A stretch of 35,019 bases of DNA, taken from contig CASEIZ010000050.1 in assembly GCA_949288185.1 (NCBI GenBank), forward strand, positions 1 to 35,019. The letters run 5' to 3'. A program made the translations under genes and the position numbers. Positions 5,484 through 31,105 of the stretch are shown one piece after another; the first letter of the stretch is position 1; every line of letters begins with the position of its first letter. Under the pieces are notes generated by a model, which saw only the letters and a list, made by a program, of their open reading frames with translations, searched no databases and was not told the DNA's origin. This DNA comes from an uncultured Eubacteriales bacterium. Lineage in GTDB: Bacteria; Bacillota; Clostridia; TANB77; CAG-508.

Positions 5484-5492
5484 TATTCAAAT

Positions 5493-5601
5493 GAGGTTGC
5501 CAAAGGGGACGGGCTATTTTGGCAACTTTTTTTGAAATGTTATCTTATAAAAAATATATTTACAAAAGTTGCCAAAATAGCCCGTCCCCTTTGGCAACCT
5601 C
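5493..5601. repeat. Perfect 38-bp inverted repeat built of two facing REP-like units
   Basis: Bases 5493-5530 are exactly complementary to 5564-5601 across a 33-base AT-rich loop. Each arm contains its own smaller hairpin (GTTGCCAAA ... TTTGGCAAC) around the head GGGGACGGG. The structure is therefore a pair of inverted REP-like units. The GGGGACGG head relates it to the element at 268-323. It ends just before the smc Shine-Dalgarno site (AAGGAG) and could act as a terminator or attenuator, or form a cruciform. Confidence 0.85.
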
Positions 5602-5613
5602 AAGGAGAAATAC

Positions 5614-10001: not shown

Positions 10002-10040
10002 GAATACAATTAGAAAAAACGAAGGACAAGATAATGTCTG

Positions 10041-10272
10041 TTTCCGTTTCGATATTTTAGCAGGTGAGGTGGTATGTATTATTTTTTGAATGTATTGACG
10101 AATGTGCCGTGGAGTAGATGTATAAATTCTTAGTTTTTAATAAGTGAGGAAGCGCGAACAGCGAGAGGCTCGCTTATTAAAAACTTAGAAGTTATCATCT
10201 ATGAAGCAAGCCGAGGAAATCATGAAAAAAATAATACATACCACCTCACCTGCTAAAATACCGAAACGGAAA
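10041..10272 (-). repeat. Large double-palindrome element, copy A (reverse orientation)
   Basis: The outer arms 10041-10087 and 10226-10272 are complementary over 47 bp with one mismatch. The inner arms (about 10126-10147 and 10168-10190) form a second stem carrying, on the reverse strand, TCTAA (10185-10189) opposite TAAGA (10128-10132). The reverse-strand internal loop holds TTCCTCGGCTT (10208-10218) and CACATTCGTCA (10096-10106), matching copy C although all stem sequences differ. A 10-bp sub-stem (about 10115-10124 with 10192-10201) lies between. It sits directly upstream of the ATPase gene but is oriented toward the leftward gene. Confidence 0.85.
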
Positions 10273-10298
10273 AATATCATACAAAGGAGAGAAAGTAT

Positions 10299-16975: not shown

Positions 16976-17039
16976 CAATTAGGTGAGAAAATAAAGAATT
17001 TCTTGCTAAATTATGTAAAATATAGTAAAATAGAGATAC

Positions 17040-17274
17040 AATTTACAGTTTTACATAGAAACTAATCAGAAGGTTAATATATAAATATTTTTAAAGTTTC
17101 TAGGTTTCCCTTCATTATGATTAACAAATTCTAACGATAAAGCCATAACAATACCCGGAAACAGGACCCTTTATGGCTTTATCTTAAGAATTTGTTAAAT
17201 AATTCCGGTCACATTCGAATTCTTTAAAAATATTTATATATTAACATTCTATAAAATACTAATGGCTGTAAATT
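17040..17274 (+). repeat. Large double-palindrome element, copy B
   Basis: The outer stem is in two parts: 17073-17096 pairs perfectly with 17222-17245 (24 bp), and AATTTACAG (17040-17048) pairs with CTGTAAATT (17266-17274), separated by unpaired stretches. The inner arms 17123-17147 and 17172-17196 pair over 25 bp with two mismatches, including the family A-A mismatch in TCTAA (17130-17134) opposite TAAGA (17185-17189). The internal loop has TTTCTAGGTTT (17097-17107) and CACATTCG (17210-17217), related to copies A and C. It occupies half of the 16902-17369 intergenic region, which otherwise holds only the leftward promoter. Confidence 0.85.
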
Positions 17275-17369
17275 ATAAAAAAATAGAAATGTTATGAAAA
17301 CATAAATCATATTTATAAGAAAAAGTATTGAAAAATAAATTTACAAATAAATAGGGGGAAAAGATAAAC

Positions 17370-27895: not shown

Positions 27896-29002
27896 ATGAG
27901 AAAAAGAGAATTAAAAAATATGGAGTGGGGAATCTTAATTACTGCAATTATTCTGTGTATTATAGGAATAGTTGCATTATTTTCTGCCACACAAGAAACT
28001 GAATATGAAGAATTTACAAAACAGATAATATGGTTTGTAGTTAGCTTGATAGCGATGGTGATTGTTATGTTTATAGATTATAACTTGCTATTGAAAGCAT
28101 CACCAGTATTATATGGCATATTTATTCTATTATTGGTAGGGGTATTATTTACATCTCCGATTAATGGAGCGACAAGTTGGTATAATATATTTGGGTTTTC
28201 ATTTCAACCAGCGGAATTTGATAAAGTATTTGTCATATTATTTTTAGCATATACCATCATAAAAATTCAACGAAAAGGGCAAGATGAAATTAATAGAATA
28301 ACGAAATTACCAATTGCATTAGCAGTTGTAGGACTACCAGTTTTGTTAATTGTTATGCAACCTGACTATGGAACAGCACTAGCATATATTGTCGCAATGG
28401 CATTAATGTTATTCTCAGCAGGTTTGGATAAAAAATATATTATAGGAACGATTTTATTAATTATCATTGCAGTTCCACTATTATATAATTTTGTATTACC
28501 AGAACATGCTAAATCAAGAATTGATGTGTTTTTAAATCCAGAATCAGACCCTAGAGGAGCAGGATATAACATTATTCAATCTAAAATTGCCATAGGTTCA
28601 GGTGGATTAACAGGAATGGGAATCTTAAAAGGAAATCAAACACAATTAGGATTCTTATATCCGAAAACAACAGACTTTATTTATTCTGTTATTGGAGAAG
28701 AAATGGGCTTTATTGTAGCAGGTGGTATCATTTTATTATATGTATATTTGATAACCAAATGTATTTATATTGCAAAAACAGCAAAAGATAAAGCAGGTTC
28801 TATAATTGCCATTGGAATTACCGGCATATTTTTATTCCATGTGTTAGAAAATATAGGAATGGTTATGGGATTATTACCAATAACAGGTGTACCACTACCT
28901 TTTGTTAGTTATGGAGGAAGTTCTTTGATTACAAACTTCATATGTATAGGATTATTATTAAATATTAGTGGTAAAAGACAAAAAACAATATTTGTGCAAT
29001 AA
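27896..29002 (+). CDS. rodA: SEDS-family protein RodA (FtsW/RodA/SpoVE)
   Basis: 368 residues with about ten membrane helices. SEDS motifs: FSFQPAEFDKVFVILFLAY, QPDYGTALAYIVAM with the catalytic-type Asp region, and the C-terminal GVPLPFVSYGGSSLITNFICIGLLLNI. SEDS proteins polymerise lipid II into glycan strands with a partner transpeptidase. RodA serves the cell cylinder, FtsW the septum, SpoVE the spore. Placement after minD-minE in a mre-min-rod-like region favours RodA. Copy C of the large palindrome begins 8 bases after the stop. Confidence 0.85.
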   Translation: MRKRELKNMEWGILITAIILCIIGIVALFSATQETEYEEFTKQIIWFVVSLIAMVIVMFIDYNLLLKASPVLYGIFILLLVGVLFTSPINGATSWYNIFGFSFQPAEFDKVFVILFLAYTIIKIQRKGQDEINRITKLPIALAVVGLPVLLIVMQPDYGTALAYIVAMALMLFSAGLDKKYIIGTILLIIIAVPLLYNFVLPEHAKSRIDVFLNPESDPRGAGYNIIQSKIAIGSGGLTGMGILKGNQTQLGFLYPKTTDFIYSVIGEEMGFIVAGGIILLYVYLITKCIYIAKTAKDKAGSIIAIGITGIFLFHVLENIGMVMGLLPITGVPLPFVSYGGSSLITNFICIGLLLNISGKRQKTIFVQ

Positions 29003-29009
29003 ATGTAAT

Positions 29010-29217
29010 TACAATTCAGTGTAGAATGCTTGCATATTTATTTTTATACATTCCTCGGCTCAATACGAATGCCAAGAAATTCTAAAACAATTTTATGGCA
29101 CCCTTTCACGTCAAGCGCGAACATTTTCCATAAAATTATTTAAGAATTTCTAAGCATTCTCCAATCACATTCGTCATTTATAAAAATAAATATGCAAGCA
29201 TTCTACACTGAATTGTA
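29010..29217 (+). repeat. Large double-palindrome element, copy C
   Basis: The outer arms 29010-29048 and 29179-29217 are perfectly complementary over 39 bp. The inner arms 29075-29098 and 29128-29151 pair over 24 bp with two mismatches, one being the A-A mismatch in TCTAA (29081-29085) opposite TAAGA (29141-29145). The internal loop carries TTCCTCGGCT (29051-29060) and CACATTCGTCA (29166-29176), shared with copy A on its reverse strand. The terminal loop is 29099-29127. It fills most of the rodA-dusB gap. Confidence 0.9.
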
Positions 29218-29279
29218 TTAAGCATATAGTTATCTCTTGTTAGATAGATGAAAATATATATGTTTTATAAGGAGAAATG

Positions 29280-30254
29280 ATGAGTTATATAAAAAAATTA
29301 AGGATAGGAAATGTAGAATTAGAAAATAATTTCATATTAGCACCTATGGCAGGTGTTACTAACAGACCATTTAGAATGATATGTAAAGAATATGGTGTGG
29401 GAATGGTTTGTACTGAAATGGCAAGTGCAAGAGCTATGTTTCACAATGATTTAAAAACAAAGAGATTGTTAAATACAGATGGAGAGAAAAGACCAATTAG
29501 TATGCAAATCTTTGGGAGTGATGAAGAGTCAATGGCATATGCTGCAGAATATGTAAGTAAGATTGCCGATATTGTGGATGTCAATATGGGATGTCCTGCT
29601 CCAAAAGTTGTTAAAAATGGTGATGGTAGTAAATTATTATTAGATTTAGAAAAGGCAGAAAGTATTTTAAAAACAGTGATGGAACATTCAAAAGTACCTG
29701 TTACCTTAAAAATTAGAAAAGGATGGGATAAGGAAAATATTGTAGCTGTAGAGATAGCAAAAATTGCAGAATCAGTTGGAATATCAGCAATAACGATACA
29801 TGGAAGAACAAGAAGTGAATTTTATACAGGAAAAGCTGATTTAGACATTATAAAACAGGTAAAAGAAAGTGTTCATATTCCGGTGATTGGAAATGGAGAT
29901 GTGGTAGATGGAGAGTCAGCAAAAAGAATGTTTGAATATACTGGTGTCGATGGTATTATGATAGGAAGAGGAACCTTTGGAAGACCATGGGTATTTAAAG
30001 AGATTATGGAATATTTAGAAACCGGTAAAAAAATGGAGGAACCAACCAATCAAGAAAAATTACAGATTATAGAAAAACATATAGATTTAGCGGTAGAAGA
30101 AAAAGGAGAGATAGCTGTTAAGGAACTTAGAAAACATATTGCGTGGTATACGAAAAATCTTAAAAATTCAAGTGAATTTAGAAATTCTATTAATAAAATA
30201 GAAACAAAAGAGGAGTTAATCAATAAAATAGAAGAATATTTTAAAAGTCTCTAG
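29280..30254 (+). CDS. dusB: tRNA-dihydrouridine synthase (DusB-like)
   Basis: 324 residues, normal for bacterial Dus. Motifs: ILAPMAGVTNRPFRMICKEYG at the N-terminus, VDVNMGCPAPKVVKNGDGS with the catalytic Cys, VTLKIRKGW, ITIHGRTR, and VIGNGDVVDGESAKRM with GVDGIMIGRG for FMN binding. The enzyme reduces uridines in the tRNA D-loop using FMN and NADPH. ATG 29280 is preferred to the overlapping ATG 29277 because of Shine-Dalgarno spacing (AAGGAG 29269-29274). Large palindromes lie on both sides (copies C and D). Confidence 0.94.
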   Translation: MSYIKKLRIGNVELENNFILAPMAGVTNRPFRMICKEYGVGMVCTEMASARAMFHNDLKTKRLLNTDGEKRPISMQIFGSDEESMAYAAEYVSKIADIVDVNMGCPAPKVVKNGDGSKLLLDLEKAESILKTVMEHSKVPVTLKIRKGWDKENIVAVEIAKIAESVGISAITIHGRTRSEFYTGKADLDIIKQVKESVHIPVIGNGDVVDGESAKRMFEYTGVDGIMIGRGTFGRPWVFKEIMEYLETGKKMEEPTNQEKLQIIEKHIDLAVEEKGEIAVKELRKHIAWYTKNLKNSSEFRNSINKIETKEELINKIEEYFKSL

Positions 30255-30279
30255 AATAAGATGTAGCAAAGATACAGTG

Positions 30280-30458
30280 CAGTGTCTAATTCCACAGAGG
30301 TATATATATTATATTTTTCGCTATCCTAACACTTTACATACTCTAACCAAATCAGCTCCCACGGGACTGTTGCTGATTTAATAAGAGTATGTAGCGTGTC
30401 GGTCCCCACGAAACCCGTTTAAAATATAATATATATACCTCTGAGAAATTAGACACTG
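30280..30458 (+). repeat. Large double-palindrome element, copy D
   Basis: The outer arms 30280-30317 and 30421-30458 pair over 38 positions with a small central mismatch. The inner arms 30335-30356 and 30372-30393 pair over 22 bp except for the family mismatch region: TCTAA (30342-30346) opposite TAAGA (30382-30386). The terminal loop contains CCCACGGG. The internal-loop motifs of copies A-C are not clearly kept; CCACGAAA (about 30406-30413) may be the counterpart of CACATTCG. Confidence 0.8.
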
Positions 30459-30493
30459 AACAGAAACTTACTTGTTTTATTAGGAGGCTTTTT

Positions 30494-31105
30494 TTGAATA
30501 AAATTAAAATATTAAAAAAACAAATCATCATAATTAGTATAATCGTTATTTTTTTCACTACATTTTTTTATATAACAAAGAGTAAAAAAATAAAAATTGG
30601 AAATAATAGTAGTAGTCAAGAAATAATTGAAAATATTTTAAATATTAGTTCATATGAAAGTATTATAGAAGTAGAAGTTAATAGTAATAAAAATGTTAAT
30701 AAATATGTTATACAACAAAACTACATAGAACCCAATATGTCAGAGCAAGAAATATTAGAACCAGATAATATAAAAGGTATAAAAATTATAAAAGCAAAAA
30801 ATGAATTAAAGGTAGAAAATACAAATTTAAATATGACAAAAATATATAACAATTATCCATATATAACCAATAATTGTATGGATTTAAATACATTTATAGA
30901 AATATATAAACAAGATGGAAAGCAAGAATATGAGGAAAAAGATAATGAAATTATATTAGAAACGGAAAATGAAGAAAATCCATATACCCAATATAGAACA
31001 TTATATATCAGCAAAGAAACAGGAAAACCTACTAAAATGGAAATAAAAGACAATAGCAAAAAAACATTAATTTACATATTATATAAGGAAGTAAAGTTTC
31101 AATAA
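30494..31105 (+). CDS. Hypothetical membrane-anchored extracytoplasmic protein (TTG start)
   Basis: 203 residues. The TTG at 30494 is supported by TAGGAGG at 30481-30487. A basic start ([10 protein letters not shown]) and one hydrophobic helix (about 11-28) give a signal anchor; no lipobox Cys is seen. The remaining ~170 residues are Asn/Glu/Lys-rich and probably beta-rich, ending in [20 protein letters not shown], a pattern faintly like LolA-fold GerS-type sporulation or germination proteins. That resemblance is weak and I do not assign a function. It lies between copy D and the toxin gene. Confidence 0.55.

Follow-up and report, generated by a model that had tools for sequence, protein, structure and literature searches.

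The four large intergenic palindromes (A, B, C and D) in a 35,019-nucleotide stretch of DNA from an uncultured Eubacteriales bacterium (hereafter the window) belong to families of MITE-like transposable elements that carry no gene themselves. In these families the two arms of a palindrome change together and the core between them inverts, most likely (probability about 0.62) via replication template switching that copies one arm onto the other. As MITEs the elements are ordinary; their evolution is unusual, with a conserved core, arms rewritten in concert and a core that changes its orientation. The original prediction, made from the sequence of the window, had proposed a process that makes or repairs palindromes, and this has become the best supported part of that first reading; the transposable nature of the elements and the inversion of their core had been missed.

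All four palindromes were found at the places where they had been noticed, each with an inner hairpin inside the outer arms. For A and B, the extents given first had to be replaced by the full lengths read from empty sites in related genomes. In the following list, R1 is a covariance model of the family, G numbers denote genomes of relatives (G000 is the genome carrying the elements of the window), and L numbers used further below denote loci.

10040-10272, reverse strand: element A, a clean insertion in comparison with G027 and G025; R1 match 10081-10234, E 1.2e-29 (A is among the copies used to build R1)
10033-10039, forward strand: left target duplicate of A, AATGTCT, imperfect, read from the empty-site alignment
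10273-10279, forward strand: right target duplicate of A, AATATCA, imperfect, read from the empty-site alignment
17035-17279, forward strand: element B, with the ends GATACAATTTACAG and CTGTAAATTATAAA; R1 match 17081-17235, E 8.2e-16 (B is among the copies used to build R1); the site is empty in G027 and G025
17027-17034, forward strand: left 8-bp target duplicate of B, AAAATAGA, from the empty-site comparison
17280-17287, forward strand: right 8-bp target duplicate of B, AAAATAGA, from the empty-site comparison
29010-29217, forward strand: element C, outer arms 29010-29051 and 29176-29217, inner hairpin 29067-29159
29035-29191, forward strand: R1 match of element C, E 2.1e-17 (C is among the copies used to build R1)
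29051-29060, forward strand: left internal-loop motif of C, TTCCTCGGCT, read in the sequence
29166-29176, forward strand: right internal-loop motif of C, CACATTCGTCA, read in the sequence
30269-30469, forward strand: element D, representing the second family, which is built alike but has another core (30301-30437); not among the R1 matches

The arms are 52 nt long in A (94% complementary), 29 nt in B (97%), 42 nt in C (98%) and 49 nt in D (88%). The core common to A, B and C consists of the inner hairpin, in which TCTAA faces TAAGA, and of an internal loop whose one side contains TTCCTCGGCT or TTTCTAGGTTT and whose other side contains CACATTCG. The motifs described for the loops were borne out: TTCCTCGGCT and CACATTCGTCA are common to A and C, CACATTCG occurs also in B, and each of the four palindromes can be read as having TCTAA opposite TAAGA. 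None of the listed open reading frames of at least 80 aa overlaps A, B, C or D. Searches of phages with C and of plasmids with A gave no match, and no Rfam family matched in the window at its gathering score; at E≤1, the region 28950-30520 gave hits to one snoRNA model and, over C, to three miRNA models, all far below the gathering score. A further palindrome at positions 5492-5602 of the window (50-nt arms, 90% complementary, 11-nt loop) is not an R1 match.

A, B and C are members of one repeat family. In the genome carrying the window, the two-motif pattern CCTCGG-N88..118-CACATTCG was matched 16 times (reversed control 0) and the pattern CACATTCGTCR 17 times (control 0). R1 was built from 17 copies, i.e. 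the 16 matches of the two-motif pattern and B. A covariance model search of the genome and its relatives had been suggested as a check of the original prediction; run with R1, it gave many matches, and the observation proved larger than described. R1 has 40 matches at E≤4e-7 in the genome, 23 of them beyond the 17 building copies; at E≤1 the list comprises 51 rows, the last 11 of which are weak, including 8 that are the opposite strand of known copies. D is absent from this list in the window's genome even at E≤1, and is a member of a second, separate family of the same build, of which 21 copies including D were read (20 fetched), with cores 85-100% identical to that of D and arms that are variable yet paired. 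The proposal that the four palindromes form one family thus holds for A, B and C but not for D.

In the genus, 24 of 35 genomes contain between 1 and 46 R1 matches (E≤0.01) and the other 11 contain none; in a first sample of 20 genomes from other families of the order there were 0 matches. A wider sample of the order (E≤1e-4) revealed R1 matches in 96 of 287 genomes and in 20 of 45 genera, the latter number leading us to reject a confinement of the elements to one genus. Of the 96 genomes, 95 belong to the window's own family and 1 to another family. Since both surveys used stricter filters and scored at most 55 and 10 candidates per genome, respectively, these counts are lower bounds. The single genome outside the window's family, G092, contains 3 R1 matches, possibly as a result of horizontal transfer. 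Matches of the two-motif pattern in the wider collection were taken as chance, the longest exact complementarity of their flanks being 10 nt among the matches listed.

Judging from recent copies in G034 and G013, the copied unit is the whole palindrome. The terminus GTTACAATTYACAG is present in 21 of 39 genomes, often as facing pairs (reversed control 0), and 20 elements with this terminus, out of at least 27 facing pairs, were fetched; they measure 75 to 387 nt, and some have different hairpin cores as judged by eye. Exact 8-bp target duplications flank 7 of these 20 elements, and 10 of 20 if one mismatch is allowed, compared to 0 of 380 in either case when the left flank of one element was paired with the right flank of another. 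At fixed ends, the target duplicates of L376, L379 and L389 differ in one position and those of L378 in eight. The site of B is uninterrupted in G027 and G025, from which the element is absent, and carries the exact 8-bp repeat on both sides in G000; the site of A is likewise uninterrupted in G027 and G025, with an imperfect duplicate in G000. C and D are absent in G027. When 41 copies from various subfamilies were scanned with free ends, 3, 2 and 2 of them had flanking repeats of 7, 8 and 9 nt (control means 0.10, 0.03 and 0.00), and none of the 21 D-family copies has a flanking 8-bp duplication; target duplication is therefore established for the GTTACAATTYACAG subfamily and B only. Furthermore, the core is found between more than one type of terminus: in L276, L277 and L281-L283 (G000) and in L353-L356 (G008), a core of the same kind is accompanied by other, GGGGACG-rich termini.

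The elements would be moved by a DDE-type transposase encoded elsewhere. As for an autonomous partner, no facing GTTACAATTYACAG pair 1-3 kb apart was present among the matches listed. Several candidate partners were considered and rejected. The Y1 (HUH) transposase is encoded in 37 of 39 genomes, including element-free ones, and is missing in G006 and G019, which carry elements; IS256 and ISL3 each exceeded the cut-off in 1 of 9 genomes and IS1595 in 0 of 9, which does not fit.

Arms and core differ strongly in their conservation. In nine copies of one subfamily from the window's genome (picked from the 16 two-motif matches for their common inner-stem type), the mean identity is 0.88 in the core and 0.57 in the arm middles, with 0.51 in the shuffled control. 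In the same nine copies, the left arm middle matches the right one of its own copy at 0.96 and the right arms of other copies at 0.51. The claim that the stems are unrelated between copies is thus correct for the arm middle but not for the whole arm, as members of a subfamily have the AT-rich stretch adjoining the core and their termini (e.g. TACAATTCA/TACAATTTACAG) in common. Four copies in G034 have no variable position among 163 core columns (60-222), and the variation in their arms is mirrored at columns 39/253, 41/249, 45/247, 48/244 and 56/231; one-sided variation occurs as well, e.g. at columns 24, 59, 223, 224 and 234.

The same behaviour is seen at orthologous sites. The changed arm columns of seven pairs comprise 50 with a joint change on both sides, 24 with a change confined to one of the four arms and 26 of other kinds. 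The pair L278/L315 (1 concerted, 58 one-of-four, 24 other) was left out of this count, its arms being misaligned and the inner hairpin lost in G034. In the pair L451 (G008)/L458 (G001), 10 concerted changes occurred in a 43-column arm between flanks that are 96-98% identical; L266/L286, in turn, shows 0 concerted arm columns and 4 one-sided ones. L271/L352 and L264/L393 each represent the same insertion, with flanks and loop motifs kept and arm middle and inner stem largely different. In L449/L457 (G008 vs G001), 120 consecutive core columns are unchanged (flanks 89-91%), and in L277/L312 the core is 100% identical over 159 nt, with 90.7% identity in the single matched flank. At L315, the site of C in G034, the inner hairpin is lost and the arms and loop motifs are kept. 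Behind the dus gene (window 30255-30493; L315-L317), at the place that D occupies in G000, there is a short hairpin in G025 and G027 and an unrelated long hairpin in G034.

Besides the arms, the orientation of the core changes. The orientation survey included 117 loci (a part of those collected), 110 of which had a clear core orientation; both flanks could be matched in another genome for 9 loci, with C counted as one, and 4 of these have the core in opposite orientation, i.e. C (G025 vs G000 and G034), L283/L400, L451/L458 and L452/L459. The cores of L283 and L400 are only 76% alike, and at L451/L458 the inversion is accompanied by a change of the arm middle on both sides. All one-flank pairs were left out, as were L273/L391 and L275/L391, for which both orientations match, and L354/L359 (short repeats), which if counted as unchanged would give 4/10. 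For L291/L292 the orientation comes from this survey, its separate alignment being offset and therefore set aside. The core of L277/L312 (one flank only, at a contig end, not counted) is inverted as well. As the genomes are drafts, the inversions could in part be assembly errors at inverted repeats.

Template switching between inverted repeats has been reported to homogenise their arms and to invert the spacer (PMC8604942); it has also been put forward as the way in which perfect stems arise and persist, with multibase compensatory changes (PMC8794818). Both signatures, arm homogenisation and spacer inversion, are present together in the elements studied here. We propose that the nascent strand would switch its template at the hairpin, which would restore full pairing to arms that had changed on one side, and that a switch between the strands would leave the core inverted. 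The arm middle would be free in sequence, and the core would owe its conservation either to selection (on movement, on protein binding or at the RNA level) or to conversion between copies; new arm sequence would have to come from conversion with other copies or from local mutation. Several points speak against template switching. It copies an arm and invents no sequence, which leaves the source of the 10 concerted changes of L451/L458 unexplained; the inverted spacers are far longer than the changes described in yeast (see below); the core has the same direction in 15 of 18 copies between co-directional genes (see below), which free inversion would not give; and L266/L286 has no concerted columns. 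The failure to find an autonomous partner in the genomes and matches covered, the few flanking duplications in the mixed subfamilies and the D family, the low core likeness of L283/L400 and the draft state of the genomes also count against the explanation as a whole. A bolder idea, which we consider quite improbable, is a mobile hairpin that rewrites its own arms: the core would recruit or prime fold-back synthesis at each move or replication, resulting in a private palindrome with either core orientation. If true, such a hairpin would be a diversity-generating element, unlike a MITE whose changes come from ordinary mutation.

The original prediction understood the covariation of the stems as that of a structured RNA or of a hairpin bound by a protein, i.e. 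a fold that is needed, so that single stem mutations are subsequently compensated. Covariation is indeed present, like the further copies that had been expected with it: 22 of 26 pairs of the inner stem have changes on both sides, which was reached in 0 of 500 shuffles, and pairing is found in 90.5% of the inner-stem cells compared to 35-49% in slid structures. The conserved core with its variable arms (0.88 in the nine copies) and the unchanged core of L449/L457 fit this explanation as well. The covariation is poor evidence of a selected fold, however: the inner stem contains 83 cells with double changes and 2 with one-sided standard changes. Nor is there an excess of wobble pairs: in 27 core-oriented arm pairs, 7 G-T and 8 A-C mismatches were counted, and among the 442 cells of the inner stem, 4 G-T and 11 A-C. 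The nearly equal numbers of G-T and A-C mismatches in the arms do not suggest a wobble-tolerant RNA. The mismatch types also lend no support to a functional strand chosen by folding energy (the reverse strand being more stable in all four palindromes). The inverted cores at the four orthologous loci and the lack of any Rfam family reaching its gathering score count against an RNA, too. What keeps an RNA role open is the direction of the copies. Of the 27 full-length copies in G000 (L256-L285), 15 are co-directional with both neighbouring genes and 3 opposite, and the neighbouring genes diverge in 7 cases and converge in 2; no probability is attached to these counts, as the copies are related. 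A role of one strand in transcripts could underlie this bias, as could a preference in insertion or inversion. On balance, we regard a selected RNA or protein-bound hairpin as rather unlikely. Covariation of inner stem and arms need not mean RNA function here, because double changes swamp one-sided ones, a G-T excess is missing and arms change on both sides at fixed sites.

Conversion among copies, in which recombination would replace whole modules (arm middle, inner stem, core orientation), is a possible though less probable explanation, and may act together with template switching. It would account for L271/L352 and L264/L393, where modules differ between kept flanks, for the invariant core of the four G034 copies and for the perfect core of L277/L312 beside a diverged flank. 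However, when six changed arm middles of 18-21 nt from G001 and G008 were compared with 7 and 9 other loci of these genomes, which are part of all copies, the best matches covered 12-15 letters; each arm would, in addition, need a separate exchange. Inversion of cores between near-perfect inverted repeats is also what an inverton-like switch would produce, with a site-specific recombinase acting on the arms as its sites. We consider this very unlikely: the arm middles are near the shuffled level between copies and hence contain no constant recombination site, recombination alone does not produce rewriting of both arms, and the region of C and D has no promoter-like excess (8 found; mean of shuffles 9.7). 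Chance hairpins or terminators, for which the short hairpins at the C and D sites of element-free relatives might be quoted, are already refuted by the copy numbers with their zero controls, by the 23 R1 matches beyond the building copies and by the target duplications.

In the open-access literature, judged mostly by title and the opening of the abstract, no described family was recognisable as the same, which is no proof of novelty. A close likeness is to QMITE2 of Coxiella burnetii, a prokaryotic MITE described as short and intergenic, with terminal inverted repeats around a core, a stable predicted hairpin and direct repeats of 7-9 bp (PMC10969869); unlike QMITE2 as described there, the elements studied here have paired arm middles that differ between copies and a conserved core that inverts. 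With the reported cases of template-switch mutation at inverted repeats (PMC8604942, PMC8794818) they share arm homogenisation, spacer inversion and compensatory double changes, but here the setting is that of mobile elements in bacteria, whose arms measure some 20-70 nt, and the inverted spacers are ~120-150 nt long vs 2-5 bp for the substitutions described in the yeast study (PMC8604942). The hairpin-forming elements of sponge mitochondria, said to have invaded genomes repeatedly (PMC2800124), resemble them by description rather than by sequence or structure, and are organellar. Like invertons as described in PMC11892184, they are invertible DNA, but lack a constant recombination site in the arm middle and a promoter-like excess.

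Covariation is standard evidence for a functional RNA, and here arms covary at fixed genomic sites along with core inversion. The many copies in many sister species form a large natural set that allows a direct test of whether template switching alone can mimic RNA covariation. Furthermore, the elements represent a type of MITE whose conserved part is the core and not the arms. Seven short palindromes of 75-102 nt (L370-L373, L377, L380, L381) have the same GTTACAATTYACAG termini and, judged by eye, no core; they may be ancestors or deletion products of the longer elements. Note also that L383 (G030) and L384 (G057) are double or nested, with a second hairpin element within the first.
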